Source: a virus
Direction: 5' to 3' (one strand)
DNA: 60,641 nucleotides
IMG/VR virus record: IMGVR_UViG_3300034737_000014
Location: 1 to 60,641 of that record
The notes beneath the pieces were generated by a model that was not told the DNA's origin, made no database searches, and was given only the letters and a program-made list of their open reading frames with translations. Position numbers and translations under genes: made by a program. Of this stretch, positions 19,431 to 52,669 are shown in pieces (the first letter of the stretch is position 1; each line of letters starts with the position of its first letter).

Positions 19431-19522
19431 GTGTGTCCTCCGATGTGGTACAAAATAATTAGTAACAAAAACGCTGCGGCATAAGCCCAGCGTGGTGTAG
19501 GATGGCGGTAGTGGTTATCCAC
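19427..19522 (-). CDS. Membrane micro-protein, 31 aa (GTG start)
   Basis: A 31-aa product with a charged/aromatic start (MDNHYRHPTPRW) and one membrane helix (about 13-28, AYAAAFLLLIILYHIG). The GTG start at 19522 overlaps the stop of the zinc-finger gene, and the TGA overlaps the next ATG (ATGA), so it is framed on both sides by translational coupling. A GGTAAGAG stretch may serve as the ribosome site. Confidence 0.5.
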   Translation of the reverse strand: MDNHYRHPTPRWAYAAAFLLLIILYHIGGHT

Positions 19523-19754: not shown

Positions 19755-19778
19755 AATAAGTGGCGCTTATCCTTTATA
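19754..19778 (-). promoter_or_regulatory. Operator-like palindrome with a -10-like box, before the zinc-finger gene
   Basis: On the minus strand a TATAAA box (19773-19778) is followed by ATAAG-CGCCA-CTTAT (19756-19770). Its core and 5-base spacer are the same as in the promoter at 36265. No good -35 is present. The ATG follows directly, so a start point inside the palindrome would give an almost leaderless mRNA. Confidence 0.6.
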
Positions 19779-21537: not shown

Positions 21538-21567
21538 ATTATAAGCGTTGCTTATTACTTCCGTCAA
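21538..21567 (-). promoter_or_regulatory. Sigma-70 promoter with palindromic operator in the spacer
   Basis: On the minus strand TTGACG (21562-21567) and TATAAT (21538-21543) are separated by 18 bases. The spacer contains the TAATAAG-CAACG-CTTATAA palindrome. It drives the 218-aa probable DNA-binding gene. The layout (palindrome inside the spacer) is the same as in the promoters at 36265 and 39886, so one regulator could act on all three. Confidence 0.82.
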
Positions 21568-31740: not shown

Positions 31741-31754
31741 ATCTTTATCCTCGG

Positions 31755-34082: not shown

Positions 34083-34103
34083 TATAATAAACGCAGCTTA
34101 TTA
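34083..34103 (+). promoter_or_regulatory. Promoter -10 and operator before the RHH regulator gene
   Basis: TATAAT (34083-34088) overlaps the start of TAATAAA-CGCAG-CTTATTA (34085-34103), a one-mismatch copy of the genome-wide palindrome. The -35 is poor (TTCCAA at 17-base spacing), so an activator or a phage-altered polymerase may be needed. The RHH gene starts 13 bases downstream, which fits autoregulation. Confidence 0.65.
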
Positions 34104-34115
34104 ATAGGGACGCCA

Positions 34116-34316
34116 ATGGCATCGAACACGAAACAAGCAGTCAGCCGCCGCAACCGCCGCGCTGCCGGGTACAAAGAATACAAGCTGGTGGTACCACCGG
34201 AGAAAGCTGCCGTGCTCAAAGACCTAGCTGACTATAACAAGGTGTCGATCAATAAGTTCCTACATCGAATGTTAGATAGGGCGTTGCTCGGTGGTAGTGC
34301 AGCTAAGACCCGGTGA
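34116..34316 (+). CDS. Ribbon-helix-helix DNA-binding protein (candidate master regulator)
   Basis: A 66-aa protein. A basic N-terminal arm (SRRNRRAAGY) precedes a beta strand (EYKLVVPP) and two helices (EKAAVLKDLADYN and SINKFLHRMLDRALL), the Arc/MetJ-type ribbon-helix-helix plan. Such dimers bind palindromic operators through the paired strands. It is the first gene of the rightward arm and sits directly after one copy of the repeated palindrome, so it may repress or switch its own and other promoters. It overlaps the next gene by 26 bp. Confidence 0.72.
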   Translation: MASNTKQAVSRRNRRAAGYKEYKLVVPPEKAAVLKDLADYNKVSINKFLHRMLDRALLGGSAAKTR

Positions 34317-34701
34317 ACGCGCCGCTTTAGAAATGATCGAACGTGGCTTCGACCGCGAGGACGTTATACGTGTAACAGGAGTGTCTATGTCCCGAATAAA
34401 CTCACTTTCACGCCGTCAGCGAATACAGATAAACCGCGGCCTTGTGACTAACATGCTTCTTGATGCCTACGACACGGCCGAGTCAGCAAACGAAATGGTT
34501 AATGCTGCCAGAGAACTCGGTAAACTGCACGGCCTGTATGAGCCAGAAAAATCTGTAGTAATAAATGGCGACCTTAATGAGGCAGCCAAGCAACTATCGT
34601 CTATGAGCACCGCAGAACTGGAACGTTTAGCATCAGTGACTACAGAGATGGTTGCAGTAGAAACCCCAGACGGTATAGTATACGAGGTACGCGGTGAGTA
34701 A
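34291..34701 (+). CDS. terS: Small terminase subunit (probable)
   Basis: A 136-aa protein. The N-terminal part has a helix-turn-helix-like segment (ALEMIERGFDREDVIRVTGVSMSRINSLS), and the C-terminal helices contain ARELGKLHGLYEPEK, a pattern common in small terminases. The stop overlaps the large terminase start. The start is uncertain: GTG at 34291 or 34297, or ATG at 34333, none with a clear ribosome site. It would recognise the packaging site, which is probably nearby. Confidence 0.7.
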   Translation: MVVQLRPGERAALEMIERGFDREDVIRVTGVSMSRINSLSRRQRIQINRGLVTNMLLDAYDTAESANEMVNAARELGKLHGLYEPEKSVVINGDLNEAAKQLSSMSTAELERLASVTTEMVAVETPDGIVYEVRGE

Positions 34702-36268
34702 TATCCCCACCTTCGGTCTAACGACTGTGCCGCCAGACACGCCGCACGAACTCCAACAGGCGAAACTACGTGCTGAGGCGAAGAAAGAACTCGCCAGTCG
34801 TGAGCTAGCCCGCCGTACCCTGCGTCATTATATCCAGCGCATGATGCCAGAATACGTATTTGACTGGGTACATGATGTAACCATTGAGGAGTTGCAGAAG
34901 TTTTGGGAGGCAGTGGAACGCCAAGAATCACCACGGTTGGCTATCTTCATGCCTCCACGGGTAGGTAAGAGTCAGCTATCGTCTATCTTCCTGCCGTCTT
35001 GGGGGCTAGGGCGCTCGCCTAAGAAAGAGCTGGTCATTACTGCCTATGCTGCCAACCTTGCCGATGAGTTCTCTAAAAAGACTCGCGAACTCCTACGTGA
35101 CCCAGATTATCAGTTGATCTTCCCAAATACCAAGCTGCACAAGGACATGGCCTCTGTAGACGCATGGCGTACAACGCAGATGGGCGGGTACGCCTCAGTC
35201 GGGGTAGGCGGGGGTTTGACGGGTAAAGGTGCTGACCTATTAATCCTCGATGACTTATACAAAGACCGCGCTGACGCTGACAGTGACTCCTACCGCAAAA
35301 TGGTTGAAGACTGGTTTAAGTCAACGGCGTATACACGTATCCAGCCAGGTGGCGGATGCCTGGTGCTTTTCACCCGTTGGCATGAGGCAGACTTAGGTGG
35401 TTTCATTGAAGAACACATGCAGCACGAGAACTTTAAGATTCTACGTTTTGCTGCGCTGGCAGAGCATGACGAACCACCATATCGTTTAGCTGGAGAATCT
35501 ATTAACCCTAAGCGCAGAAGCGTTGAGGACTACCTAAGAATTAAAAAGACTGTAGGGGTTAGGGAGTGGCAGTGCCTGTACCAACAGGACCCAGTACCAG
35601 CAGACGGTACAATGTTCAAGCTATCCGATGTGCGGTATTATGACAAGGACATTGACGAAGATACGCCAGACCTTAAACGGCTACCGGATAGCCAGGACCT
35701 TGCTACCTTCTCCGCTTGGGACTTTTCTACTGGCCGCGGTACAGACTTCACTGTAGGCGGCGTTGCCGCTATTGACCGCGACTACAACCTATACCTGATC
35801 GACGTAAAACGTGGTAAGTGGGAAGCCTTCGACATCGCTGAACAGATTATCGAAGCAGCCACAGAGCACAGGACCCAGCGTAATGGCATGGAGCAGGGGC
35901 AGCTTTCGGCCATGATCGAGCCTATCCTTAACAAGCGGATGCAGGAGAAGCAGAAGTTCATTAACATAACACCGCTAAAACCAGGTAGACAGAACAAAGT
36001 GGCGCGGTCAATGACCATTCACGCCCGTATGCAACAGGGTAAAGTGTTCTTACCTAAGAACGCCCCTTGGTTGCAGGATTTCCTAGCTGAATTGATGAAG
36101 TTCCCCAATGGCCGTAACGATGACCAGGTGGACGTGTTCAGCTACTTAGGACTGATGATCAATGATGTTTCAGCCCCAGCCAAAGCGTCAGCCAAGCCCA
36201 AGAAGTCTTGGAAGGATAAGCTTAAGAAACTAAAGGCAGACGGCGAAACTTCGTGGATGTCAGCTTGA
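34694..36268 (+). CDS. terL: Large terminase subunit
   Basis: A 524-aa packaging motor. The ATPase has Walker A PPRVGKS (about 87-93) and Walker B LLILDDLYKD (about 181-190). The C-terminal RNase-H-like nuclease has SAWDFSTGRGTDFT (about 340-353) and NGRNDDQVDVFSY (about 476-488). It pumps DNA into the prohead and cuts the concatemer. The last codons overlap a near-perfect promoter at 36265, so portal and later genes also get their own transcription. Confidence 0.95.
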   Translation: MSNIPTFGLTTVPPDTPHELQQAKLRAEAKKELASRELARRTLRHYIQRMMPEYVFDWVHDVTIEELQKFWEAVERQESPRLAIFMPPRVGKSQLSSIFLPSWGLGRSPKKELVITAYAANLADEFSKKTRELLRDPDYQLIFPNTKLHKDMASVDAWRTTQMGGYASVGVGGGLTGKGADLLILDDLYKDRADADSDSYRKMVEDWFKSTAYTRIQPGGGCLVLFTRWHEADLGGFIEEHMQHENFKILRFAALAEHDEPPYRLAGESINPKRRSVEDYLRIKKTVGVREWQCLYQQDPVPADGTMFKLSDVRYYDKDIDEDTPDLKRLPDSQDLATFSAWDFSTGRGTDFTVGGVAAIDRDYNLYLIDVKRGKWEAFDIAEQIIEAATEHRTQRNGMEQGQLSAMIEPILNKRMQEKQKFINITPLKPGRQNKVARSMTIHARMQQGKVFLPKNAPWLQDFLAELMKFPNGRNDDQVDVFSYLGLMINDVSAPAKASAKPKKSWKDKLKKLKADGETSWMSA

Positions 36269-36293
36269 CAATAAGCGCCACTTGTTGTATAAG
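36265..36293 (+). promoter_or_regulatory. Consensus sigma-70 promoter with operator in the spacer (before portal)
   Basis: TTGACA (36265-36270) and TATAAG (36288-36293) are exactly 17 bases apart. The spacer contains AATAAG-CGCCA-CTTGTT, a copy of the palindrome; the core and its 5 central bases are the same as at 19756. The -35 overlaps the stop codon of terL. It should drive portal and downstream head genes. Confidence 0.9.
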
Positions 36294-36328
36294 ACTACCA
36301 TAGCGCTATACTAATCAGGACCCAGTAG

Positions 36329-38440
36329 ATGATTATCCCGACACAGGAACCGGACAAAGACGAGAAGAAGATTGCTGACGCTAATCTTAAAGCTTTCCGC
36401 CGTGCATACGAGGCAGGCTTCACTAAATGGCTGACTGTAGCTGATCTGTGTGACCGTTACTACCAAGGAGACCAGTGGGAGAAAGAGGACTTAGATGTCC
36501 TTGCCAAGCTTAAACGCCCAGCCTTAACGCTAAACGTGGTTCGTCCAACGATGAATGCCATCCTTGGCGAGTACGTTAATAAGCGCGCTACGTTCAACGT
36601 TAAGCCTCAAACCGAAGGCGACCAGCAGGTTGCTGACGTGCTTACTAAGATCATGATGCAGATTGCGGATGAGAACCAGTTCGAGCACGTAGAGGGTACA
36701 GTATTCCAAGACGGTATGATTACCGACCGCGGTTATTTCGATATTCGCATGGATTTCGACGATAACATTAGCGGAGACATCCGCATTACCTCCCTAGACC
36801 CAACAACTGTGGTACCAGACCCGCAGGCTAAGGAGTGGAACCCTGATACATGGCGCGAAGTTTACATCACAAAATGGTTAAGCATTGATGATATTGCCGA
36901 GCTGTATGGTGACGCGAAGGCAGAAGACGCGCGAACTCAAGCATTAAGTACCAACTTAGGGGCTGAATATGCAGAGTATACACGCCGCGGTACTTTCGGT
37001 ACACCAGAGTTCGGCTATGCCTATGATCAGATTCCTTCAGATGAACGCGACGTTAAGCGTATTCGTGTCATTGACCGCCAACATTTTGTCATTGACCGCC
37101 AAAAAGTATTCGTAGACCCTATTACTGGTGAAGAATCTCAAGTCCCGGACAACTGGGACGACGCTAGGGTCGATGAGTATACCGCGTTGACAGGCAGCTA
37201 TATAATCACTAAGACAACAAAACGCGTACGTTGGACAGTATCAGCAGGGTCGGTAGTCCTTCATGATGACTTCTCACCTTATCCATTCTTCACAGTTGTA
37301 CCTTATTTCCCACAATTCCGTCGCGGTAAACCACTAGGGTGGGTACGTGACCTGATTGACGCCCAGCAGCAGATCAATAAGTTGGCCTCCCAGTCTCTTC
37401 ACGTTGTCAACAGTACCGCTAATAGCGGCTGGGAAATGGAAGAAGGCGCGTTGGTGAATATGACGCCTGAAGAATTGGCAGCTAACGGTTCTAAAACTGG
37501 CTTGGTTTTAGTGCGTGCTCCTGGTAAACAAATATCTAAGATTCAGCCGAACCAGATTCCGTCAGGTTTGATGCAGTTCGTAGAGTACGCGCAGGATATG
37601 GTGCGCCGTATCAGTGGCGTATCAGACTACATGGTTGGTGAAGGCAGTTCAGAGGTTAGCGGTATTGCCCTAGACGCCCGCATTAGCCGCAATTTATCTC
37701 AGTTGCAACCAGCGTTTGATAGCCTAGATCGTACGCGTACCTTGTTGGCTAAACGCATGTTGCATCTGATTCAAACATATTACACCGATACTCGCATTTT
37801 CCGCATCACCTCTGAAACCGAGACTGGTGAAGCTACCCGTGAGGCCATCGCCGTCAACCAGCCTACCCCAGAAGGCACCGTGATTAATGATTTAACCATT
37901 GGGGAGTATGACGTAGTAGTTTCTAGCCAGCCTAGTCGTCAGACTTTCGTAGAGACTCAGTTTGCACAGGCTATCCAAATGGCACAGGCTGGTATCCCAG
38001 TACCACCAGACGTTATGGTTGAGTTGTCTAATTTCGCACGTAAGAATGAGATCGCGGAGCGTATCCGTCAGCAGATGGGTATGGGGCAACCTACGCCAGA
38101 ACAGCAGCAACAACAACAGATGCAGCAGCAAATACAGATGCAGCAGGTCATGCTGGAGATGCAGAAACTTCAAGCGCAGATCACCGAGCTTAATACTCAA
38201 GCAGAGCTTAACCAAGCTAAAGCTTATGCCGCGGTCACTAATCCATCTATTGAGTACAAAGGTACAGTGGCTAAACAGCAGACAGCTTTGCAAAACAAAT
38301 CTGCGGAGCTGGACGCTAAGACAGCTATCGCTCGTATGCAAACGCTGGCGCGCTCCGCAGAAGGCGGTCGTATACGTGAGGCAGAGCCTTATCGACCAAA
38401 TCAGATTCAGAGTATGACAGCAGGCGCGGAGGGAATCTAA
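36329..38440 (+). CDS. Portal protein (P22-like)
   Basis: A 703-aa portal: long helical N-terminal domain (FRRAYEAGFTKWLTVADLCDRYYQGDQW), a stem/wing region with LNVVRPTMNAILGEYVNKRATF and PYFPQFRRGKPLGWVRDLIDAQQQINKLASQ, and a Gln-rich helical barrel (about 590-640, QQQQQQMQQQIQMQQVMLEMQKL). The length and the order after terL fit P22-like portals of podoviruses. It forms the dodecameric ring for DNA passage. It overlaps the next gene by one base. Confidence 0.93.
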   Translation: MIIPTQEPDKDEKKIADANLKAFRRAYEAGFTKWLTVADLCDRYYQGDQWEKEDLDVLAKLKRPALTLNVVRPTMNAILGEYVNKRATFNVKPQTEGDQQVADVLTKIMMQIADENQFEHVEGTVFQDGMITDRGYFDIRMDFDDNISGDIRITSLDPTTVVPDPQAKEWNPDTWREVYITKWLSIDDIAELYGDAKAEDARTQALSTNLGAEYAEYTRRGTFGTPEFGYAYDQIPSDERDVKRIRVIDRQHFVIDRQKVFVDPITGEESQVPDNWDDARVDEYTALTGSYIITKTTKRVRWTVSAGSVVLHDDFSPYPFFTVVPYFPQFRRGKPLGWVRDLIDAQQQINKLASQSLHVVNSTANSGWEMEEGALVNMTPEELAANGSKTGLVLVRAPGKQISKIQPNQIPSGLMQFVEYAQDMVRRISGVSDYMVGEGSSEVSGIALDARISRNLSQLQPAFDSLDRTRTLLAKRMLHLIQTYYTDTRIFRITSETETGEATREAIAVNQPTPEGTVINDLTIGEYDVVVSSQPSRQTFVETQFAQAIQMAQAGIPVPPDVMVELSNFARKNEIAERIRQQMGMGQPTPEQQQQQQMQQQIQMQQVMLEMQKLQAQITELNTQAELNQAKAYAAVTNPSIEYKGTVAKQQTALQNKSAELDAKTAIARMQTLARSAEGGRIREAEPYRPNQIQSMTAGAEGI

Positions 38441-38799
38441 TGGCTAAGATAGATGAAGTACGGCAACTAAGCCCCCTAGCGCAGTTAGGGGCATACGGCG
38501 ATAGATTCAATGACAATACTAACCGCTACGGCGGAGCCGGTTTGAAAGGCGACGGTTGGTTCGGCCCTATACCCCTATCTAACGGCGAAGTAGCTACTGA
38601 ATACTCATCAGCGGATAAGTTCGGCACTAACCGTTATATAGGTTTCCCTACTAACCCCCCAACCCTTACTCCTATGGAGTTGATGCGATGGAAGCAAGCT
38701 GCATCCGCACATGCAGAGGTGCCAAATGACATCTACGAAAAAGCTAGGGAATTTGCTAAACAGCGTCTTGACATGGGGCTATCGCCTTTTGTAGAGTGA
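38440..38799 (+). CDS. Small head-associated protein
   Basis: A 119-aa protein without membrane segments (IDEVRQLSPLAQLGAYGDRFNDNTNRYGG...TLTPMELMRWKQAASAHAEVPNDIYEKAREFAKQR). It lies between portal and scaffold and overlaps the portal stop. Proteins with a KGDGWFGPIPL-type centre occur at this place in other podoviruses; a portal or head accessory role is inferred. Function unknown. Confidence 0.62.
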   Translation: MAKIDEVRQLSPLAQLGAYGDRFNDNTNRYGGAGLKGDGWFGPIPLSNGEVATEYSSADKFGTNRYIGFPTNPPTLTPMELMRWKQAASAHAEVPNDIYEKAREFAKQRLDMGLSPFVE

Positions 38800-38870
38800 A
38801 GGGGAGACCTAGCGTACGATTTTCAACAATAATTAGTTTTTTATGACCAACAAATATAAGGACTACACCA

Positions 38871-39827
38871 ATGAGTGACTGGATGACTGAACTCGAAGAC
38901 GAGTTGAAAAACAAACCTACTGAAGCTCCAGTAGCAGCAGTAGAACCAGAACCCGCTGAAGAACCAGCGGCAGCGGCAGCAGAACCAGAGCCTACTGAAG
39001 CGCCAGCAACGGCAGCAGTAGAGCCAGAACCTACTGACCCACAACCCATAGATGAAGGCACTCCGCCTGTATCCACAGGAGAGGAACCAGCGCCTCAACA
39101 ACGTGCGCCTATGATTCCCAAGTCTCGTCTCGATGAAGAGATCGAGAAGCGCCGTAAGCTAGAAGAAGAACTTAAACTGGCACGCAGCTTTGTGGAACAA
39201 ACGATGCAACAGCGTCAGGCGCCACAGCAACAACAGGAACCTCAGCCAACGCCAGATGATATTCTCAATGCGCTATATAAACGTGAGTATGATGCGTTAC
39301 TAGATGGTGACACGGCCGCAGCAATGCAATTCCGCCGCCAAGCCGACAGCCTTCGCACTGAAATGATTCGTCAGCAGACACTACAGGAAGCCCAGAGCGT
39401 AGTTCATGGTAACTTTGAACAGACAGCTTTCAACCAGCGTTTATCGCAGGTTGTAGAACAATATCCTGTTTTCCTAGAAACAAGCGATGACTATGACCCA
39501 CAACTAGCCCAAATGGCATTGACTATGGGTAACGCGTTTAAGGCCCAAGGATTGAATAGTGTGGCGGCACTTGAGAAAACCTTGGAAACATTAAAGCCAA
39601 TCCTTGACGCACGGTATGCCCCACCTGCACAGACCCCCGCAGCTCCACCAGCTCCGATCAAAAACGTAGCTGCTAAGGTAGCTGCCTCTCGCGCCCAACC
39701 ACCAGCTACGCAGAATGCTGGGTCTACTCAACGCGCTGCGGCTAAGGTAGATGTGATGTCTATGACGGTAGAAGACTTCGAGAAACTGCCGCAAGACGAA
39801 ATCAATAAACTATTACGCGGTGGATGA
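38871..39827 (+). CDS. Capsid scaffolding protein
   Basis: A 318-aa, highly charged, Pro/Ala/Glu-rich protein. The N-terminus has degenerate EPEPxEAPAxAAV repeats (about 15-55), followed by a coiled coil (SRLDEEIEKRRKLEEELKLARSFVEQTMQQRQ) and a C-terminal helical domain (MTVEDFEKLPQDEINKLL) that would contact the capsid protein. Composition, length and position just before the major capsid gene are typical for a scaffold. A terminator follows. Confidence 0.88.
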   Translation: MSDWMTELEDELKNKPTEAPVAAVEPEPAEEPAAAAAEPEPTEAPATAAVEPEPTDPQPIDEGTPPVSTGEEPAPQQRAPMIPKSRLDEEIEKRRKLEEELKLARSFVEQTMQQRQAPQQQQEPQPTPDDILNALYKREYDALLDGDTAAAMQFRRQADSLRTEMIRQQTLQEAQSVVHGNFEQTAFNQRLSQVVEQYPVFLETSDDYDPQLAQMALTMGNAFKAQGLNSVAALEKTLETLKPILDARYAPPAQTPAAPPAPIKNVAAKVAASRAQPPATQNAGSTQRAAAKVDVMSMTVEDFEKLPQDEINKLLRGG

Positions 39828-39851
39828 TACTGTCCAGTCTGCCCGGGCTTT

Positions 39852-39880
39852 CCCCTCTTCGGAGGGGCTTTTTGTATTTT
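39852..39880 (+). terminator. Rho-independent terminator between scaffold and capsid promoter
   Basis: A perfect 6-bp stem CCCCTC/GAGGGG (39852-39867) with a UUCG loop is followed by CTTTTTGTATTTT. It lies 25 bases after the scaffold stop and 6 bases before the next promoter, so it resets transcription for the capsid gene. Confidence 0.92.
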
Positions 39881-39885
39881 AGGGC

Positions 39886-39914
39886 TTGACAATAAGCATA
39901 ACTTATTATATAAA
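39886..39914 (+). promoter_or_regulatory. Consensus sigma-70 promoter with operator in the spacer (before capsid gene)
   Basis: TTGACA (39886-39891) and TATAAA (39909-39914) are 17 bases apart. The spacer carries AATAAG-CATAA-CTTATT, a perfect 6-bp-arm copy of the shared palindrome. It directly follows a strong terminator and drives the major capsid gene from a long leader. Confidence 0.92.
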
Positions 39915-39920
39915 GGGAGC

Positions 39921-40122
39921 GTACAACCAGATTCCTCGTCAGGCCACGATACGGCCAATCTGAGTGTGCCGGTTCGTCACCGTTAACAGTCGTATTTTTT
40001 ACTTTCGTGTGCCTTCTGGGAGTGTCCTGGTGGGCGTGGCAACGACACAGCCAAGTGATTGGATTGGGTGTTCCCCAATCGAAAGAACTTTTTTGTTATT
40101 TGCCAACATACAGGAGAAGTAT
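39921..40122 (+). promoter_or_regulatory. Long structured leader of the capsid gene
   Basis: About 200 untranslated bases. They contain a GTGTC/GACAC inverted repeat (40022-40047) and a hairpin GATTGGG/CCCAATC (40062-40080) followed eight bases later by CTTTTTTG, which looks like an attenuator. An open frame crosses the leader in frame with the capsid, but it has no ribosome site and odd composition. The leader may set capsid output or mRNA stability. Confidence 0.55.
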
Positions 40123-41247
40123 ATGGCGACTATTAATGCTCTGAACAGCACCTCATTTGCGGCGATGAACGCCGAAGAGAAAAAGATTTGGTCCTTAAAC
40201 TTCTGGAAAGAAGTACGTAACCAGTCATTCTTAACTGGCTTCTTGGGCGCAGACCAAAACGCAGTAGTACAACGTGTTAGCGAATTGAAAGCTACCGAGA
40301 AAGGTACTAAGGCAATCATCCACTTGATTCCTAATGCTTCATTAGGCGGTGTGGCTGGTGACAACACTTTACGCGGTAACGAAGACACTGTTACTGCACA
40401 TAGTATGGAAATTCAATACGACCAATATGCTATCGCTATGGCAAACAAAGGCCGTATGGACGATCAGAAATCTGTGTTTGATTTCCGTACAGTAGCTAAA
40501 GATCAGTTAGCTTACGGTATGGCTAAGTTGGTGGACGAGTTAGCCTTCCAAACTATGGCGGGTATTCCTTACACTCTAAACGTCGATGGTTCTCCACGTA
40601 CCACAGGCCAAGTGAGCCAGTTAGCTTTCGCTGCTGACGTATCTGCTCCTACAGCTAACCGTTGGTTACGTTACAATCCAAATACTGACAAGTTAGAAGC
40701 TGGTGACACTGCGACTATGACATCTGACAACAAGATGACATACCGCGCTTTGGTTCGTGCTAAAGCTTATGCAGTTAGCAAGCGTATCAAAGGCTTGACG
40801 ATGAATGGTAAAGAAACTTACCACGTGTTCGTTGACCCTATCACTATGTCTAACTTGAAACTAGACCCAGACTTCTTAGCGAACGTTCGTGCTGCTGCGG
40901 CTTCTTTGGGTAACAACTCTGAGTTGTTCAAAGGCGGTATCCCAACAGTTGACGGTTTGGTAATCCACGAGTCTATGTATGTTCCTAACACTTTAGGCGC
41001 TGCATCTGGTTCTAAGTGGGGTAGCGACGGTAAACTAGATGGCGCTCGTTGTTTGGTGGTCGGTGCTCAAGCGCTTGCTTTCGCTGACATCAACACTCCT
41101 GAGTGGGAAGAACAGACAGAAGACTACAACCGTAAGTTCGGTATCAGTATCTCTAAAATCTTTGGCTTCAAAAAACCTAAGTTTATGAGTTCTTACTCTG
41201 GTACGGTTGAAGACGTTGGCGTAATCGCGTTCGACGTAGCACTGTAA
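40123..41247 (+). CDS. Major capsid protein (N4-gp56 family type)
   Basis: A 374-aa HK97-fold capsid protein. It begins MATINALNSTSFAAMNAEEK. The residues KIWSLNFWKEVRNQSFLTGFLG and NTLRGNEDTVTAHSMEIQYDQYAIAMANKGRMDDQ are the typical N-terminal region of N4-gp56-type capsids, and the C-terminus has VVGAQALAFADINTPEWEEQTEDYNRKFGISISKIFGFKKP. AGGAG seven bases before the ATG fixes the start. It has its own promoter, terminator and long leader, as expected for the most abundant virion protein. Confidence 0.92.
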   Translation: MATINALNSTSFAAMNAEEKKIWSLNFWKEVRNQSFLTGFLGADQNAVVQRVSELKATEKGTKAIIHLIPNASLGGVAGDNTLRGNEDTVTAHSMEIQYDQYAIAMANKGRMDDQKSVFDFRTVAKDQLAYGMAKLVDELAFQTMAGIPYTLNVDGSPRTTGQVSQLAFAADVSAPTANRWLRYNPNTDKLEAGDTATMTSDNKMTYRALVRAKAYAVSKRIKGLTMNGKETYHVFVDPITMSNLKLDPDFLANVRAAAASLGNNSELFKGGIPTVDGLVIHESMYVPNTLGAASGSKWGSDGKLDGARCLVVGAQALAFADINTPEWEEQTEDYNRKFGISISKIFGFKKPKFMSSYSGTVEDVGVIAFDVAL

Positions 41248-41263
41248 TCTAGGCAACTAGGAT

Positions 41264-41281
41264 GGGCGGGGGAACCCGCCC
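41264..41281 (+). terminator. GC hairpin after the capsid gene
   Basis: A perfect 7-bp stem GGGCGGG/CCCGCCC with a GGAA loop lies 17 bases after the capsid stop. Only CTCTT follows, so it may be a leaky terminator or an mRNA stabiliser that makes capsid mRNA more abundant than downstream mRNA. Confidence 0.55.
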
Positions 41282-41300
41282 TCTTACTAAGGAGAACCTT

Positions 41301-41486
41301 ATGGCTTTAGTTAAAGCATTAAACGGTGTGATTCAGGTCGTAGACGGTATCCACTCGTTTTCAGTCGGTACAGAACCGCAAGAAATTCCCGATGCGTTGG
41401 TAGATGCCGCCGTATCACAAGGCTGTCAGTTGGTTGAAAACAAACCAGCACGCACAGCAACAAAGAAAGCAGAGCCAACTGAATAA
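41301..41486 (+). CDS. Small head protein, 61 aa
   Basis: A 61-aa protein beginning MALVKALNGVIQVVDGIHSF, with a beta-rich first half and a Lys/Ala-rich tail. AAGGAG precedes the ATG at 41301; the longer frame to 41262 is not supported. It lies between capsid and adaptor genes and could be a head decoration or connector protein. No family is recognised. Confidence 0.55.
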   Translation: MALVKALNGVIQVVDGIHSFSVGTEPQEIPDALVDAAVSQGCQLVENKPARTATKKAEPTE

Positions 41487-42097
41487 TGGACGTACTCAAC
41501 CTTCGCCGCAATGTTGCGCTAGTAACCAAGAACGCTCCCGATTTTATTATCGAGGAAGCGATTGTGAACGCCACACAGCAGTTGTGTGTGGAGGCCGAGA
41601 TTTGGCAAGCGATGATTGAGATTGATACTTCACCTGGTGACAACGAGGTATCAATCTCATCTCCATCTGGCGCCTCAGTGGTGCGTATTATGTGGGCCAC
41701 GCTAGGAGATCGTAAGCTGCAAGCCGTAGGCCCTTCGGAGTACGCTACAGCATTTACAGATACTGATCGTGCTACGCCGAAATACTACTATCAAGTGGAT
41801 AGTGGAACCTTGGCAGTGTTCCCTATGCCGGCAACAATAGAGACAGGGCAGGCACGAGTAGTTTGCCGCCTACGGGATAATACAACTAATTTACCCGATG
41901 ACCTATACTCGCTGTATAAAGAAGCGATTGTTTTTGGCGCGCTAACACGCGTACTAGCAAACCCGAGTGACTTCGGCAACCCTTCGTTGGCCAACCAGTA
42001 CGAGCAACGTTGGTTTGCTGCTATTGATAGAGCCAGAGGGCGAGCTACCCGTAGCAAAGACAACACCGTACTAGAAGCTACCTACGGAGGTTACTGA
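41486..42097 (+). CDS. Head-tail adaptor protein
   Basis: A 203-aa protein of the gp6/T7-gp11-like adaptor type by layout: a helical N-terminus (NVALVTKNAPDFIIEEAIVNATQQLCVEAEIW), a beta sandwich centre and a C-terminal helical part (LPDDLYSLYKEAIVFGALTRVLAN; LANQYEQRWFAAIDRARGRA). It would attach to the portal. A second protein of similar plan lies at 52670. The assignment comes from layout and position, not from a strong motif. Confidence 0.68.
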   Translation: MDVLNLRRNVALVTKNAPDFIIEEAIVNATQQLCVEAEIWQAMIEIDTSPGDNEVSISSPSGASVVRIMWATLGDRKLQAVGPSEYATAFTDTDRATPKYYYQVDSGTLAVFPMPATIETGQARVVCRLRDNTTNLPDDLYSLYKEAIVFGALTRVLANPSDFGNPSLANQYEQRWFAAIDRARGRATRSKDNTVLEATYGGY

Positions 42098-42546
42098 TGC
42101 TATATCGCCTGAACGAGCAAGCCTTAGTGACCTCCGCTGATTACTTGTTGGACGGCGACCATGCTATCATGCTTATTGAGGGTCTCGCAGAAGTAAATAA
42201 ACAATCCGGTATGGAGTTAGATACTGACGCGGTTGGTAAAGATGTTTTGTCCGGCCGACTGCGTAACCTGACAGTGGTCGATAACGAGTTCAACCCGATT
42301 GGTTTTGTTCTTTACCACGTGTCAAAAACAGGATACGATATTAACGTCGGTTTGCACGTAATTGCTATGTACATGCGCCCTGGTCATGCAGCAGTAACCA
42401 CTAAGCTGCTGGACTTTATCAAACTGGTAGCCCGCTCTTTGGGGGCTACTAAGGTGGTAGGTATTTCACGACGGAAAGGCTGGTCTCGCAGGATGAAGCC
42501 CGACGTAACTTTTCAACTAGGTATTTGGGATTTAAGCAATGAGTAA
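42097..42546 (+). CDS. GNAT-like acetyltransferase-fold protein in the virion module
   Basis: A 149-aa protein with the GNAT-like order: acidic helix (AIMLIEGLAEVNKQSGMEL), beta strand VVDNEFNPIGFVLYHVS, then VIAMYMRPGHAAVTTKLLDFIKLVARSLGATKVVGIS (acetyl-CoA-loop region). In T7-like podoviruses a GNAT-fold internal virion protein sits at a similar place. It may be a core component and not an enzyme. It overlaps both neighbours. Confidence 0.65.
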   Translation: MLYRLNEQALVTSADYLLDGDHAIMLIEGLAEVNKQSGMELDTDAVGKDVLSGRLRNLTVVDNEFNPIGFVLYHVSKTGYDINVGLHVIAMYMRPGHAAVTTKLLDFIKLVARSLGATKVVGISRRKGWSRRMKPDVTFQLGIWDLSNE

Positions 42547-43177
42547 AGGCGGCAGTGCTCCACCTCCACCAGAAGAGAGTCAATACTCCAAGACTTTGGC
42601 GCGCATCGCAAACGAGCGTTGGGCTGATTATAAGGACCGTTTTCAGCCTGTAGAATCGGCGTATATGAATAGCGTAAACCAGCTAGATAGTAATACTAAC
42701 TATGCTGGCGCTATGGCTAAAGGTATTTCTGCGGCTAACTCTACCGCAGGCAACCATTATATGGACGCTGCCTTGCAGATGGCCGCCGGCGGCTCGGCGT
42801 CTCCGTTGATGCAACTTGGCTCTGCCTCTATGAATGCAATGGCTGACGGGGTGTACGGCGGTGCAGCGAGTCAGAGGGGCAATTTCCTACAACAGGCGCA
42901 AGGCGTAGCTAACTTAGGAAACGGAACAGTTGATCAGACTATTGGCACATTCAAAACAGTAAGTGACGCAGACACCTCCCGCATCAATAGCAACTTTGCG
43001 AACTTAGCGGGCAGTAGAATTTCCGCGCAGAATGCCAACACTGCCCTACTAGGCGAGCTTACCCAACTAGGTGCCATGTACGGCGCGCATAATGGGTGGT
43101 TCAGTAGTAAACCGAAAGACGTAAATATTGGTGGTAAGTTAGATGGTATTAGCGGCACAGAAGGGTGGTTTAGATGA
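42539..43177 (+). CDS. Internal virion / ejection protein, paralogue 1
   Basis: A 212-aa Ala/Asn/Ser/Gly-rich protein starting MSKGGSAPPPPEESQYSKTLARIANERW. The next gene starts with a clearly related segment, so the two are tandem paralogues. The composition (small residues, amphipathic helices, no cysteines) fits pore-forming ejection proteins of podoviruses. It overlaps the GNAT gene and its paralogue by about 4-8 bp. Confidence 0.7.
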   Translation: MSKGGSAPPPPEESQYSKTLARIANERWADYKDRFQPVESAYMNSVNQLDSNTNYAGAMAKGISAANSTAGNHYMDAALQMAAGGSASPLMQLGSASMNAMADGVYGGAASQRGNFLQQAQGVANLGNGTVDQTIGTFKTVSDADTSRINSNFANLAGSRISAQNANTALLGELTQLGAMYGAHNGWFSSKPKDVNIGGKLDGISGTEGWFR

Positions 43178-43728
43178 GTAAAGGAAGTTCAGCTCCGGCA
43201 CCAATTCCAGAGAGCGAATACAGTAAGTCGATGGCGCGTATAGCCGACGACCAGTACAACTACTACAAGTCTAACTACCAACCGTTTGAAGACAATTTAA
43301 TTGCCAAAAGCAAAGAGAGTCCTTTGGCCGGACTAGGTCGCGTTAATGACTCTTTCACTGCTGGAAGTGCCATGACTAATGGTATGGCGGGTAGAAGCTT
43401 GTCACGCTTTGGCGTAGCGCCCATGCCAGCTCAACTCCAAGATATGTCACGCCTTAACTCGTTAAATACAGCCGCTGCTACAGGGAAAGGCGTAACAGAT
43501 TATGCTACTAATACAGTCAACCAGGACACAGCGTTACAGGGTATGCTAGCCGGCATGGGTAAGAGAGCTGTAGGCCAAGCAAGCGACGGGCTAGGTACAG
43601 CCAACAGCAATTACATGTCGCAGCAGCAGCAGTACCAGCAAGCGCAGATGGCGCAAAATCAGGCGAATCAAGCGGCTACCAACCAAAATATTGGCACCGC
43701 TGCGACTTTTGCGATGATGTTTTTCTGA
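43174..43728 (+). CDS. Internal virion / ejection protein, paralogue 2
   Basis: A 184-aa protein starting MSKGSSAPAPIPESEYSKSMARIADDQYNYYKSNYQPFED, closely parallel to the first 40 residues of its neighbour. The C-terminus is Gln-rich (SQQQQYQQAQMAQNQANQAATNQ) and ends in a hydrophobic stretch. It probably forms part of the ejectosome with the other internal proteins. Confidence 0.7.
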   Translation: MSKGSSAPAPIPESEYSKSMARIADDQYNYYKSNYQPFEDNLIAKSKESPLAGLGRVNDSFTAGSAMTNGMAGRSLSRFGVAPMPAQLQDMSRLNSLNTAAATGKGVTDYATNTVNQDTALQGMLAGMGKRAVGQASDGLGTANSNYMSQQQQYQQAQMAQNQANQAATNQNIGTAATFAMMFF

Positions 43729-44426
43729 TGAAAGCGATACAGTTCTCAGGTGGCAAAGATTCCACAGTCATGCTTTATAGGTTGAAGCATTTGTGGGACG
43801 AAGCCACTGTATTCTGGGTTAGTACCGGGGATACCCCGCCAGAGGTACGTGAGTTTGTGGAAGCTGTCCGCGCTATGGTACCGAGCTTTGTTGAGATAGC
43901 ATCGGATGTAATAAGTGACAAGGCCGCTAATGGATTTCCCACGGACTACCTTAGTAACACTGACAGAATCGCCGCCGCTGGCGGGACGAACAACGGCAAG
44001 AAACGAAGGACGTCTTTTGATTGCTGCTTTAGTAATATAATGTTACCCATGCACGAAGCGATGAAAGCGCGTGGTGTAACAGAGATTTACCGTGGACAAC
44101 GCAACGATGACGCTAACAAGGCACCTTTACAAGATGGCCAAGTAGTGGACGGGGTTACCTACCGATTTCCCATAAAGGACTTGACTGAGCAGCAGGTATT
44201 AGCTGAGTTGGATTTGCTAAGAAAACAGGGCTTACCTGTGCCTACGTGGTACAATGAGCTTAATAGCACCCCCGACTGCTTGCACTGTACCGGATGGTTA
44301 TCAGAGAACCGCGGTAGCTGGTTAAAGAAAAATCATCCAGAGGCTTACATACTGTATTCTAAAGAGATAGCTGCGTTAGTTGATGACTTACGCGCAGCCG
44401 CACAGAGATTAGAGGAGGCTAGATAA
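43728..44426 (+). CDS. PP-loop ATPase, PAPS-reductase/adenylyl-transfer-like
   Basis: A 232-aa enzyme. The PP-loop SGGKDS (residues 7-12) starts the protein. VFWVSTGDTPPEVREFVE follows, then C99-C100 and the CxxC pair C184/C187, which could hold an iron-sulfur cluster or a redox disulfide. The family adenylates or sulfur-transfers to small molecules, RNA or DNA (CysH, TtcA and DndC types). It is fully embedded between two internal virion genes with one-base overlaps, which is unusual for a metabolic enzyme. The substrate is unknown. Confidence 0.8.
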   Translation: MKAIQFSGGKDSTVMLYRLKHLWDEATVFWVSTGDTPPEVREFVEAVRAMVPSFVEIASDVISDKAANGFPTDYLSNTDRIAAAGGTNNGKKRRTSFDCCFSNIMLPMHEAMKARGVTEIYRGQRNDDANKAPLQDGQVVDGVTYRFPIKDLTEQQVLAELDLLRKQGLPVPTWYNELNSTPDCLHCTGWLSENRGSWLKKNHPEAYILYSKEIAALVDDLRAAAQRLEEAR

Positions 44427-45133
44427 TGGCACAGATATACGAAATCCCGCGTTTCAATACCGCGTCACCCTTGGCAGGTATCGCGCAGTTGTATGCGACA
44501 TATAAGGGCATTGAGCGACAAGACGCTCAGGATCAGTATGCGAAAGAGAAAGACGCTAAAACCTTTGCATTGCAAGAACAGGAGGTAGGGGCTACGCGCG
44601 ATAGAACGGCTATGGAAGCGGAAATCGCGGCCCGCCGTATGCAGCATGAAGGTGCCCTCCAGCAAGCTAAAATGGATTGGGAGAAAGACCCGAATAACCC
44701 TGACACTAAGTACCGTCTAGCGATGGCGGATGCAGCCTTAAAGAACGCGAATACGCAGGCTGGGCTAGACGCCGCGCACGCAGATTATTTTGGGCAGCTT
44801 GGGTCAGATTTAGCCGCTACTAGGGAGTTAATGTCTAAGTTCGGTAACATCATCTTAGAGGCGCAACAAAAAGCAGGCCAAGCCCCTACACCGCTAGGCA
44901 ACCTGGCGCCGACAGGCAATCCTCAAGCGAATGATAAATTCGTGGCGCAACCAATTGTCGCGGCGCAACAATATGCCCCGACGCCTACCCCGCCTGGTAG
45001 TTTGTCTGATGCAGACTTGCAAAGGTTGGTTATGCAACAACACCGAGCTATGGCTGGAGTGCGGGGTTACAATGGTATTTCGTGGGATACACCACGCCCG
45101 GTAGGAACCAATAGTAGAGGAGCGGTTCGATAA
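44426..45133 (+). CDS. Internal virion protein (helical)
   Basis: A 235-aa helical protein. Residues 40-120 are coiled-coil-like and rich in Ala, Gln, Glu and Lys, with charged helices and no cysteine. The C-terminus is Pro/Gln/Ala-rich with APTPLGNLAPTGNPQ and TPTPPGSLSDADLQRLV. It resembles other podovirus ejection proteins in composition; no sequence family is recognised. It overlaps the genes on both sides by one base. Confidence 0.6.
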   Translation: MAQIYEIPRFNTASPLAGIAQLYATYKGIERQDAQDQYAKEKDAKTFALQEQEVGATRDRTAMEAEIAARRMQHEGALQQAKMDWEKDPNNPDTKYRLAMADAALKNANTQAGLDAAHADYFGQLGSDLAATRELMSKFGNIILEAQQKAGQAPTPLGNLAPTGNPQANDKFVAQPIVAAQQYAPTPTPPGSLSDADLQRLVMQQHRAMAGVRGYNGISWDTPRPVGTNSRGAVR

Positions 45134-46203
45134 TGGCAGGAATGAGCGATCTAATACAACAAGCCCGTTTGATGGCGGCGGTAAAAGCTTACGATGCTGG
45201 TGATACCGAGACTGCGTATCGCGCCCTTGGTATTTCTATGCCTGGCGCTATCGACCCATCACAACGTGCGTTAAATGACACACGCACCGCTCTTGGACAA
45301 CAACAGTACGGGTATAACGTAGAAGCTAATCCTCTAAGAATAGATGGGTTGTCCCTTAGTAACCAAACTAAGGAGCAGCAATTAGCGCAACGTGAGGCTA
45401 AGTTCCAAGATGAGCTACTAAGTAAGCAACTATCCAATGGTAAAAACGCTACTGATGTTATCTACGACATCACTGAGAAAGCAGTAGCTCCGCATACCGA
45501 TGTCTCCAGTATGGATAAGAAACAGGTAGAGGCCTTAAACGCGCAGCATAAGATTAACGGCACAGCTCTAGGCAATACTGTTTTAGCTATGTTAGGAGAA
45601 TACAACCTTCCAGCTACCCCAGAAAACATTCGTACGCTGGCTAACGCACAGATGGCCGCCGAAAAAGTAGATATGGGCATTTCCGGGCCAGTTAGTAAAG
45701 TTAATATGGGCGCTATATTAGCCAACCATGCTAAAGCAATCGGCCTAGGCGGGGTAGTACCGGGGGATATGGATAACTATTACGCCGTCGCAGACTCAGG
45801 CATCAATGCCTTATCTTCGCCTACAAAGGACAACCGTATGCGCGAGGTTTTGTCAGTGCTAGGTACTAATGCACTCAAAGCACAGGGCCAAGGCGACTTG
45901 CTAAATGGTACATTTGCTTTTTTAGGTGATCGTAATGGTCCGCTTGATAACACAGTGATGGACAGTTTACACAATTACGCTCGGGCAAAAGACCCTAATT
46001 ACGAAACCAACCTGTCTATGTTCTATGGTCATTTGCCAACTATTTTAGAGACAGCGGCCAAAGCATCTGGCTTTAGCGGAGCCAAGGAAATGGTAGAGCG
46101 TATCCAAGACCAGAAAGAACCGGATGCGGTGTGGAGTAAGGTAATGCAGGAAGCCTACGACAAGTATGGTAAACTTTATCAGCGCAGCTTTAACGACCGG
46201 TAA
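45133..46203 (+). CDS. Internal virion protein (large helical)
   Basis: A 356-aa soluble, helical protein with Ala/Asn/Gln-rich segments (DLIQQARLMAAVKAYDAGDTETAYRALGI; QRALNDTRTALGQQQ; DVIYDITEKAVAPHTDV) and no cysteine. Placement between the 235-aa protein and the 2112-aa giant suggests a role in the internal core or DNA ejection. It is followed by a promoter/operator region. Confidence 0.62.
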   Translation: MAGMSDLIQQARLMAAVKAYDAGDTETAYRALGISMPGAIDPSQRALNDTRTALGQQQYGYNVEANPLRIDGLSLSNQTKEQQLAQREAKFQDELLSKQLSNGKNATDVIYDITEKAVAPHTDVSSMDKKQVEALNAQHKINGTALGNTVLAMLGEYNLPATPENIRTLANAQMAAEKVDMGISGPVSKVNMGAILANHAKAIGLGGVVPGDMDNYYAVADSGINALSSPTKDNRMREVLSVLGTNALKAQGQGDLLNGTFAFLGDRNGPLDNTVMDSLHNYARAKDPNYETNLSMFYGHLPTILETAAKASGFSGAKEMVERIQDQKEPDAVWSKVMQEAYDKYGKLYQRSFNDR

Positions 46204-46245
46204 TCATGCGGTATAATAGCCAGGCATAATAAGTCTGGCTTATTA
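46189..46245 (+). promoter_or_regulatory. Promoter and perfect 7-bp-arm operator before the giant gene
   Basis: TTTAAC (46189-46194) and TATAAT (46212-46217) are 17 bases apart. TAATAAG-TCTGG-CTTATTA (46227-46245) lies over and just after the expected start point, with perfect 7-bp arms, the best copy of the palindrome. It probably controls the 2112-aa ejection gene. Confidence 0.78.
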
Positions 46246-46278: not shown

Positions 46279-49200
46279 ATGGCGACTCCTCCTAATCAGG
46301 CACAATCACCGTTAAACTTCTTGGGCCTGCCTGAGACTAGACCAGGAACCTCTTTGATTACGGAGAACCCCGGTTTCTTGGATGGAGCACAAGCCGTAGG
46401 TTACTCCCTTGCAGCCGGCGTGGCTAATGCCAGAGCCTTACTGGCCGATTCTGACCAAGAGTTAGAGCTACATCGCCGCGCCGCCGAAGAGATGACACGC
46501 CGTGCTTCGTCCCTTACTAACGAGGCTAGCCTAGTTAACCTATGGGGGAACGCGGGAGCGCAGATTCTAGGAACTGCAGCCACTGGCGGACTAGCCGGGC
46601 TTGGGGTGAAAGCCGTAGGAGGAACCGCTTTAGCCCGTTTAGCGGCGGCAACTGCTGCCGGCACAACGCTAAATGCGCCGGCCGCCTACAATGAGAGTGT
46701 CAATACTCAACTCGACCAAGGCGTCCCCTATAAGCAGGCCTTATCGGATTCTATCGCTCCGGCTATGACTAACGCCGGGCTAGATTCAGTAACTCCGATG
46801 ATGATGATTGCTAAAGGACTAGCGGGCAAAGGAGTTGATGCTGCGGCTCATGCTACTGGTGACAGCGTATTAAAACGTTTCGGTAAAACTACCGGGGCAG
46901 AAGCCTTAACTGGCGCAGCGCAAACAGGCGTAAATATCGCAGGCGTCGACGATGCTTATCAGAAGTATGACGTGTTCAGCGAGAAAGGTATCGGTGATAT
47001 GGCCAATGCTGGTATGATGGAGGCCATCGCCGGCTCGCCTTACACCGCGGCTGAATCGGTACTACATAACACCCCGGCGCAACCCCCAGTAGCTCCAGCC
47101 GCCTCGCCACAACCAGTTGAGGTAACGTCGCCATCGGCTGAGGCAACTGTAGACCCGAGCACCGAAACGGTAATCGAAGATAGTAACGGACAAGTACCTC
47201 CAGGTATGGATACCACTATTACCCCGGCGCAAGCGCGCGCGGCACGTGCTGCTGAGTTACTAGCTAACGCCAGCAAAGGCGGTGAGTTCCTGAATCTGAA
47301 GCAATTAAATGACTTCACCAAACAGCTTATTGACGATTTAGGCGGAGACCAAAACGACAGGAAAGCCCTAGCCTCTCATTTAATGTCTAAGGCTAAACAA
47401 GATTTCAACGGTAAATCAGCATACAACGCTACGACTATCGCCCAAGAACTAGACTCTCGTCTGCCGATCTTTGCCGCAGGTATTGAACAGAAGAACGCAG
47501 CGCGCGCTAATGAAGCCAATAATTCGACGCTTGAACAGGTAGGTGTAGTGACTCCGCCTACCGGCGTTACCGAGCAGGATGTTGCAAAAGCGTTTGGCAA
47601 GAAAACCTATGAGGTCCCGGCCGCAGACTTACCGAATGGAGACTTGTTTGGGTACGATAACCCGAAACAACTTAATGCTAACTTATCAGAAGTAGAGCAG
47701 AGATTAGCCCAACCGTTTGCTAACACGGTACCGCACCAAGAGGTTTCAGGTAATCAACCTATTGCTGAACCAGCTATCCCAGGCAACACACCACAGATAG
47801 AGATGTTTGGCCTGGGCGGTCAGGTAAACCCACAGGCTATGAACATGCCGGCGTTGCCTGCTCCTCCTGTTGGTTTGAGCGAAGACCACCTTAACCAAGC
47901 CGCTAGACAGTTAGCGGCTGAACAAGGTAATCACCCAGTACAGGCAGATACCCAGCCTACTGCTCCAGTGCTTGTGCGTAACCAGACGCTAGGCATTGGG
48001 GGCGACCAAGCAATTCCTGTTTTACCCACCGGCGAAGCTATGGCGGACGGTTTCGGCAAAGACCCGTTGAAAGCACTGGTCGAGTTAGAACCGACATCTT
48101 GGAAACAAGACACCACGATCACGGGCCTCCTGCCGAAGAACAAAAGCGCATTACTACGTAAAGCAGTGGAAAGCGCTGATACTATTGAACAGGCTATCGC
48201 TAATTTAGGCAGCTACAACAAAGGCGTAACACGCCAGAAAGCAAGTGATTTAATCCTAGCCTTGAACAAGCTGTTGCCTGCGCAGGAGACAGCGCCAACC
48301 GTAGAACCTACCCACGCGGCACCAGCCGTACAGCTACCCGCCGTACAGTCTATGGTTGAGCAGTCTCCAGCTAAAGCCGCCCCCGTGGCCAAACCAGGAG
48401 CTACCGCTGTCGCTGCCCGCCCTTCGCCAGCGCTACCAGCAGAAACTGTTCTAACTGATACCGACGTACCAGCTTCTAAGATAAAACTATCATCGCGCAA
48501 GACTGGGTTCAAGACACCAGTGGCTGCGGTTGCTGCCGCCAAGAAAGCTAAAGTGGCCAATCCTTTGCCAGTTAAGCTAGCTGACGGTACCTACGGTTAT
48601 ACGTCAAAAGAACTGCTAGATGCTAAAGAAGACCCGCTAGATACCCCAGTACCTGCGGAGTTGGTAACTAACAAAATTACCGCGAAGACCTCTAAGAAAG
48701 GCATTACTGCCCGCGAGTGGTTGATTAACTTATTCGCACGTAAAGACCCGCTTGACCCGCAGATAAGCGAGAAAGCCTTAGCGTATGTGGCTTCGTTGAA
48801 AGATGAACCTTTGGTTAGTTCTGACCCAGAACTTTTAACTACTCTATTGAAAGACCCCGACATCGCGGATTTAGCTGCTACACTAGACGACCCAGAAATG
48901 TCTTTGTCAGAACTAGCGTTCGCTCATTTACAGGACTTAGAGACCATAGCTCAAGCAAAAGCGGATATAGCAGCGGAATCAAACGTTGTAGAGGAAGCGG
49001 CTAAGACGCCACCTAAACCCGTTCAGAAAAAAGTAGCAAAGACGGATAACAAGCTAGCCGACCAGGTGTATGACAAGTGGACCCCGCACGAAGACGTTGT
49101 TAAAGCCGCTAACGCAATCGCCAGTGGTACTCTAAAGAAACGCGTCTTAGCCGCCCTTAAACAAACCATGCCCGGGGAAGCTGTTACATCTTTAGAACGC

Positions 49201-52634: not shown

Positions 52635-52669
52635 GGATACAAAATCAAATACAAGCAGAGCTTATTAAA

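Follow-up and report, generated by a model that had tools for sequence, protein, structure and literature searches.

The question raised by this virus is why a single palindrome recurs at promoters along its genome and which regulator it may serve. The window, meaning the whole stretch of DNA analyzed, is the 60,641-nt IMG/VR record IMGVR_UViG_3300034737_000014, of which 6.0% is intergenic according to the gene list used in the analysis. A preliminary description had listed six intergenic copies of TAATAAG-N5-CTTATTA. All six were found, their positions being correct to within about 5 bases, and every one is intergenic (6/6, binomial 5e-8), but a seventh intergenic copy had been overlooked. 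The motif itself does recur, but it is a perfect 7+7 palindrome only at 46227, and the conserved core of the window copies is ATAAGY-N3-RCTTAT. When all gapped palindromes were enumerated, ATAAG-N5-CTTAT ranked first with 5 exact copies versus 0.07 expected, while the second-ranked family had 3 copies; it is the sole strongly recurrent gapped palindrome of the window. With up to 3 mismatches allowed, the 7+7 motif matched 12 times in the whole window versus 3.6 expected, a count reached by none of 100 shuffles, and the intergenic DNA of the window holds 7 ATAAGC-N3-GCTTAT-like near-palindromes versus 0.02 expected. Rearranging the letters of the half-site abolished the signal: 0 of 104 other arrangements reached even one copy at ≤1 mismatch, whereas the actual arrangement has 4. 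Nor are copies equally frequent in coding DNA, where the single one (46730..46744, plus strand, ATAAGCAGGCCTTAT) lies within the giant virion gene. A match at 20652 was rejected as an operator; it is part of an intrinsic terminator stem and probably coincidental. The AT-rich spacers of near-consensus promoters might seem palindromic through composition alone, and several copies do overlap TTGACA or TATAAT elements. However, the shuffles, the permuted half-sites, and the enumeration all contradict such an artefact, some copies lie outside the spacer, and the sites are conserved in relatives while the equivalent promoters of the closest relative, L005 (14.7 kb), are not palindromic. We regard this explanation as already refuted.

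All seven intergenic copies are located at or adjoining sigma-70 promoters, and at 21.5, 36.3, and 39.9 kb the palindrome sits in a 17–18 bp promoter spacer just as first described. On the minus strand, the putative operator at 19754..19772 (2 mismatches to the 7+7 motif; ATAAGCGCCACTTAT in gene orientation) is at the promoter of a gene for a 79-aa DksA-like zinc-finger protein (19515..19754, minus), and it has ATAAGCGCCACTT in common with the copy at 36.27 kb, as had been noted. In prophages of Motiliproteus, Oceanisphaera, Aggregatibacter, and Pasteurella, the homologous zinc-finger gene is again closely preceded by a putative operator. The second minus-strand site (21539..21557, 1 mismatch) fills the 18-bp spacer of TTGACG-18-TATAAT, the promoter driving a 241-aa ssb-like gene (20698-21423), and counterparts precede the gene in the same position in G006, G008, Motiliproteus, Endozoicomonas, Parendozoicomonas, Aggregatibacter, and P. 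fluorescens. The remaining putative operators are on the plus strand. The one at 34085..34103 (1 mismatch) follows a TATAAT-like box and precedes the start of the gene for a 66-aa ribbon-helix-helix (RHH) protein and of the terminase operon; putative operators are likewise found at the TerS promoters of G006, Motiliproteus, Endozoicomonas, Parendozoicomonas, Aggregatibacter, and Pasteurella. The most degenerate copy (36269..36287, 3 mismatches) fills the spacer of the portal gene promoter, TTGACA-17-TATAAG, and has equivalents upstream of portal in Motiliproteus, Bermanella, P. fluorescens, and L163. At 39890..39908 (1 mismatch), the spacer of the major capsid gene promoter, TTGACA-17-TATAAA, is filled in the same way, and in 10 of the 10 operator-bearing genomes compared a putative operator precedes the capsid gene by ≤300 bp (0.5 expected). 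The portal and capsid promoters of L005 are present without an operator. The perfect copy (46227..46245, 0 mismatches) covers the expected start point of the gene for a giant 2112-aa virion protein; in Oceanisphaera, a putative operator is found 29 bp upstream of the homologue. The seventh, weaker site (52649..52667; 3 mismatches to 7+7, 1 to the core) is just downstream of TTGACA-17-TATAAA, with the GTG of gene 52670-53299 following after 2 bp. G006 and G008 also have putative operators after the giant-protein gene.

The same type of palindrome was identified in relatives with only ∼45% portal identity. ATWAGC-N3-GCTWAT occurs in 14–19 exact copies per genome in two phage genomes with an integrase (G006 and G008) and in Motiliproteus and Endozoicomonas prophages; the window-type palindrome is top-ranked in the first three and abundant in the Endozoicomonas prophage. 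The window sites match these repressor-bearing kin in core sequence and spacing (ATAAGY-N3-RCTTAT versus ATWAGC-N3-GCTWAT), with half-sites shifted coherently from TATWAGC to AATAAGY (Fisher 5e-7). In other prophages the palindromes are different ones, TATAGG-N5-CCTATA, TATAAC-N7-GTTATA, AACAGT-N3-ACTGTT, and ACGCA-N1-TGCGT. Each of these is found almost exclusively in its own phage, where it occupies orthologous promoters (those of the capsid, terminase, portal, ssb-like, and primase genes). When seven operator types were scanned against 19 sequences, the result was essentially diagonal. The exact composite promoter-operator pattern had no match in IMG/VR, and among the matches listed from a broad IMG/VR scan with TATAAGC-N3-GCTTATA, relatives were mixed with unrelated contigs. 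Within the window's own lineage, a complete early region is available from a single genome, and L005 was the one additional member found.

These distributions bear on whether a host transcription factor binds the sites, the phage exploiting a host regulon. The window promoters are of the host sigma-70 type, and the same palindrome occurs in phages that have no recognizable regulator gene in common with the window: profiles from 79 G006/G008 protein pairs, searched against the window for a shared small regulator, recovered only replication, nuclease, peptidase, and structural genes. A 627-aa early protein was rejected as a common regulator, having no family match and no recognizable DNA-binding domain. 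On the other hand, scans of whole host genomes placed nearly all copies of the palindromes in the phage region or contig (Parendozoicomonas, 7/7 places; Aggregatibacter, 5/6; Bermanella, 4/4; Motiliproteus, 7/10; Endozoicomonas, 16/17), and prophages of different hosts carry different palindromes. A host factor is therefore very improbable.

The 6-bp stem and 3-base loop of the palindrome also resemble N4 early promoters, raising the idea of hairpin promoters for a phage-encoded single-subunit RNA polymerase. In G006 and G008 the copies lie very near start codons, and their asymmetric half has a fixed orientation (15:0). In Motiliproteus, however, the bias runs the opposite way (1:6), and because of this reversal orientation was dropped as a promoter signature. 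The sigma-70 boxes are intact in the window, polymerase-like motifs occur only in DNA polymerases, primase and, by chance, TerL, sequence comparison linked the giant virion proteins to no polymerase structure, and PF00940 gave no match in a search run without a positive control. We consider an N4-type mechanism extremely unlikely.

What accompanies the palindromes across relatives is a gene for a lambda-CI/LexA-type repressor. The CI-like protein of the kin has an HTH and an S24-like C-terminal domain, its model matches lambda CI, 186 CI, and LexA, and in G006, G008, and the majority of the prophages its gene lies directly 3′ of one for a VRR-type nuclease. In G006 and Endozoicomonas, putative operators adjoin the repressor gene itself. 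The association has exceptions: two search methods gave no convincing palindrome family in the CI-bearing prophages of Vreelandella massiliensis, Spirabiliibacterium, and Shewanella gaetbuli, and in the last of these the AACAGT-N3-ACTGTT palindrome expected from its Bermanella-like recognition helix was not found. KPP25 and a Neomarinimicrobiota-bin phage, both CI-lacking, have no recurrent palindrome. Profile searches without heuristic filters detected no CI-like gene in the window, whose record may miss a little DNA at its ends, and no integrase was found there. The window does encode the nuclease homologue (19889..20254, minus), but the CI-like gene that comes next downstream in temperate kin is missing, and the zinc-finger gene holds the place after the nuclease gene. 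A reading of the 19756 site as an old CI operator was dropped because the zinc-finger genes of four other prophages have an operator of their own. Because the cognate CI-like gene is absent, we classify the window as a carrier of sites rather than a complete system, and because both CI-like gene and integrase are missing, the phage appears to be a lytic descendant in the manner of mycobacteriophage D29.

The proposal that one regulator coordinates both arms is supported by sites at early and late promoters that recur at orthologous promoters of distant relatives, but its choice of the 66-aa RHH protein (34116..34316, plus) as that regulator is not supported in the form proposed. This protein could be a substitute regulator that binds the palindromes, controls its own gene from the putative operator that separates the −10-like box from the start codon, and sets the timing of early and late promoters in lytic growth, after a take-over of the CI network. 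An AlphaFold model of moderate confidence (pLDDT 73) predicts an RHH-like helix order with an unstructured N-terminal ribbon, and its structural neighbors are RHH-dominated with no match at E<0.001. The half-site shift in the window is coherent, as a new binder might leave it, and among the window proteins scanned the only other sign of a DNA-binding domain was a weakly matching HTH in the small terminase. However, a profile built from the protein and its L005 counterparts retrieved no homologues from G006, G008, or the prophages of Motiliproteus and Endozoicomonas, all of which carry the same palindrome, and at this locus L005 carries a pair of RHH-type genes with no palindrome at the corresponding promoters. 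A take-over would also need a switch of fold with the site sequence retained, which is unparsimonious. The protein has no Pfam match, and neither it nor the DNA polymerase has close relatives in IMG/VR. Its predicted fold resembles P22 Arc, AmrZ, and CopG and would suit an Arc/CopG-like regulon, but it lacks a sequence family match to them and RHH genes do not co-occur with the palindrome across relatives. Since none of the other operator carriers examined encodes it, the RHH protein is at best a recent substitute. We consider it rather unlikely to be the present regulator. It is also unlikely that, after CI loss, it turned a lysogeny network into a lytic timing circuit with the AATAAGY shift as a record of the change.

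Among the known systems compared are repressors of the lambda-CI/LexA type (also N15, phiKO2, PY54), with which the kin share the HTH and S24-like domains and palindromes overlapping promoters; the putative operators stand at orthologous lytic promoters, as such a network would predict. In lambda and N15, though, operators are few and clustered at OL/OR (PMC4488713), whereas the sites here cover nearly all lytic promoters, including those of terminase, portal, and capsid. Cluster A mycobacteriophages such as L5 have many repressor sites in early and late regions, mostly intergenic, that differ in sequence between relatives and track immunity, and D29, a lytic deletion derivative without an intact repressor, keeps them (PMC6550527, PMC5712189). 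The scattered, mostly intergenic sites of the window likewise persist without a repressor. The L5 stoperators, as characterized in PMC9283540, are asymmetric 13-mers; most of them influence elongation at positions remote from promoters, and their repressor is monomeric. The window sites, unlike these, are palindromic and at or beside promoters; neither they nor the CI-like fold of the kin correspond to the 13-bp GGTGGc/aTGTCAAG site and gp71-type repressor, and the window phage and its kin are P22-portal types with Gram-negative hosts. Another parallel is the SPbeta SPBRE, described in PMC10516654 as a 15-bp element at about ten promoter regions of one prophage and bound by the master repressor MrpR. 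MrpR, however, has a tyrosine-recombinase fold, unlike the candidate repressor of the kin, and the sections of PMC10516654 consulted describe no lineage-specific variant set like the one found here. The nearest sequenced phages by TerL and portal are Kochitakasuvirus KPP25 and phiR18 (Pseudomonas), Aeromonas phiA008, and Acidovorax AP1. No recurrent palindrome of the window kind was found in KPP25, phiA008, or AP1; KPP25 has no CI-like homologue, and none of the three matched PF00589, although the AP1 record nonetheless annotates an integrase.

Taken together, the sites, their promoter geometry and orthologous placement, the confinement to phage DNA, and the co-occurrence with CI-like genes that the window itself lacks make it probable that a temperate ancestor passed on a phage-wide repressor circuit and that the palindromes serve as its operators, the window phage being a lytic descendant that lost repressor and integrase. 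In temperate kin, the CI/LexA-type repressor encoded directly after the nuclease gene would act as a dimer, binding the palindromes at almost all lytic promoters (those of early replication, terminase, portal, capsid, and virion genes) and at its own. By sitting on the spacer, over the start point, or on the first bases to be transcribed, it would exclude host RNA polymerase, keeping the prophage silent and the cell immune, with an operator sequence particular to each lineage. The window phage would have retained at least six or seven operators; its promoters would be open in naive cells and could close in a cell with a prophage of matching immunity type. The AATAAGY shift suggests that the sites have, or until recently had, their own binder rather than undergoing pure decay.

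In textbook cases a lambda-type repressor silences its prophage from one or two control regions, and the co-change of a repressor with many scattered sites has been studied mainly in cluster A mycobacteriophages. From our results we would expect podovirus-like phages and prophages, largely of gammaproteobacterial hosts, to make up a family in which a lambda-type repressor has its operator at almost every lytic promoter, the operator sequence being swapped wholesale between lineages while positions stay constant. With about six operator types and a dozen CI-like proteins, they would form a comparative set for following such co-change. Sequence alone would then predict which prophages make cells immune to which phages, the apparently lytic window phage included.

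All six copies of the palindrome reported in the preliminary description (at 19754, 21539, 34085, 36269, 39890 and 46227) were found in the window, and the promoter geometry described for them, with sites placed relative to sigma-70 boxes, was borne out. Every one of them lies in intergenic DNA, which makes up 6% of the window by mechanical gene calls. At up to 3 mismatches the window held 12 matches against 3.6 expected, and 0 of 100 shuffles scored as high. When all gapped palindromes in the window were enumerated, ATAAG-N5-CTTAT ranked first, with 5 exact copies against 0.07 expected (core, ATAAGY-N3-RCTTAT). A seventh intergenic copy, at 52649, lies directly downstream of TTGACA-17-TATAAA. 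The 60.6-kb record encodes a P22-type portal and a large terminase of a T4-virus-type Pfam family, with the early arm running leftward and the late arm rightward.

The palindromes are absent from the portal and capsid promoters of L005, the contig nearest to the window (portal identity 77%), which retains the promoters themselves (TTGACA-17-TATAAG and TTGACA-17-TATAAA, respectively). The large-terminase frame of this contig (L005:2413-4374) is 653 aa versus 524 aa in the window; matched residues 21-524 cover 631 codons, implying a ~127-aa insertion within the gene. Conservation in related phages was nevertheless confirmed at ~45% portal identity. In G006 and G008, two virus records of 61-64 kb, ATWAGC-N3-GCTWAT occurs in 14-16 exact copies per record, mostly closely upstream of genes, and a third lineage, L163, carries 5. 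Prophages located in named bacteria with a portal profile have 14 copies (Motiliproteus coralliicola) and 19 copies (an Endozoicomonas assembly). Because the sites are nearly confined to the phage in whole host genomes (in the 4.2-Mb Motiliproteus genome a 58-kb stretch holds 7 of 10 site places, and in the Endozoicomonas assembly, of 5.9 Mb, a single 76-kb contig holds 16 of 17), a host regulon is disfavored. Asymmetric copies (ATAAGC..GCTAAT) are oriented with transcription 15:0 in G006 and G008 (L050-L053, L054-L057), 1:6, the opposite way, in Motiliproteus and 9:4 in Endozoicomonas. G006 and G008 also share a conserved perfect operator copy within the coding region of primase (L050:10436, L055:3377). 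Other shared genes include an early-arm ArdA antirestriction protein (window 27567-28094; PF07275, E 3e-19), with a homologue in G006, and a peptidase gene paired with a fast-evolving early gene (28837-31848), a pairing kept in G006, G008 and the Motiliproteus prophage; the ~627-aa product of the latter is Cys-rich in its C-terminal part and had no Pfam match. For a stand-alone 93-aa protein (15980-16261), the match is limited to the N-terminal NAD+-binding domain of NAD-dependent DNA ligase (PF22745, E 9e-31).

When 60 kb around the portal gene was compared in 12 further bacterial assemblies, several had an equally recurrent palindrome of other sequence: TATAGG-N5-CCTATA in Parendozoicomonas, TATAAC-N7-GTTATA in Aggregatibacter, AACAGT-N3-ACTGTT in Bermanella and Oceanisphaera, ACGCA-N1-TGCGT in Pseudomonas fluorescens C2 and, with borderline significance, TGATA-N9-TATCA in Pasteurella testudinis. 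A cross-scan of every palindrome type against every genome gave an essentially diagonal table, and nearly all exact copies genome-wide fall in the phage region or contig (Parendozoicomonas 7/7, Aggregatibacter 5/6, Bermanella 4/4, Oceanisphaera 2/2). The sites lie at orthologous genes: the capsid gene in 10 of 10 operator-bearing genomes compared and, repeatedly, the terminase small subunit, portal, ssb-like and repressor genes and the zinc-finger gene before primase. Apart from the match at 20652, part of an intrinsic terminator stem, each intergenic window site has an orthologous-gene counterpart in at least one relative. No convincing recurrent palindrome was found in three CI-bearing prophages (Vreelandella massiliensis, Spirabiliibacterium and Shewanella gaetbuli); the type predicted for S. 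gaetbuli from its recognition-helix similarity to Bermanella (AACAGT-N3-ACTGTT) was not found on scanning. Open-licence full texts yielded no description of this operator family.

A CI-like gene, whose product combines an HTH at the N terminus with an S24-like domain at the C terminus, is found directly 3' of a VRR-type nuclease gene in G006, G008, Motiliproteus, Endozoicomonas, Parendozoicomonas, P. fluorescens, Oceanisphaera, Bermanella, Aggregatibacter, Pasteurella, Spirabiliibacterium, S. gaetbuli and V. massiliensis. Its Pfam matches fall under curated cut-offs; the top structures for its AlphaFold model (pLDDT 83) are a lambda-186 hybrid repressor, lambda CI, 186 CI and LexA. G006 and G008 each encode a tyrosine integrase, and the Motiliproteus, Parendozoicomonas and other prophages are embedded in long chromosomal contigs. 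In the window, no CI-like gene follows the nuclease gene (19889-20254) or was found elsewhere, even by filter-free profile searches, nor was a tyrosine or serine recombinase; the record carries no end repeats and a small part of the genome may be missing from it, although the locus matching the repressor position of its kin is wholly inside it. The window is a case of operators without a repressor. Phage KPP25 and a phage from a Neomarinimicrobiota bin have neither CI after the nuclease nor a recurrent palindrome.

What binds the window sites today? The 66-aa protein encoded at 34116 is a tempting regulator because an operator adjoins its own gene start. The ribbon-helix-helix (RHH) fold proposed for it was recovered by modeling (structural neighbors AmrZ, Arc and CopG, none passing E 0.001). 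The other palindrome carriers checked gave no homologue, and the L005 locus has two RHH-type genes and no palindromes, which together indicate that the ancestral partner was not the RHH protein. Ahead of the first of these L005 genes, at L005:1400-1580, lie direct repeats (CATAAAACGCTTTTGATATAC and variants) that may be that phage's own regulator sites. Of the 14 window half-sites, 11 have A as the base flanking ATAAG on the outside, compared with 16 of 126 in kin (Fisher 5e-7), and the window sites also accept T after ATAAG. Since a shared half-site change is not expected from random decay, the window sites appear to have tracked, up to the recent past or even now, a binder that has a preference of its own. 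That binder may be a CI once encoded by this lineage and since lost, the RHH protein, for which we consider the role unlikely, or something unrecognized.

We propose that a dimeric repressor on a spacer or start-point site would keep host RNA polymerase from forming an open complex or escaping the promoter, so that one repressor could shut every lytic unit of a prophage. The SPBRE sites of SPbeta, to which MrpR binds (PMC10516654), offer a comparison. In naive cells the window promoters are expected to be active, and cells with an ATWAGC-type prophage might resist the window phage. This predicted situation parallels that of phage D29, in which part of the repressor gene is lost and L5-type sites remain, and which shows homoimmunity with its relatives (PMC5712189).
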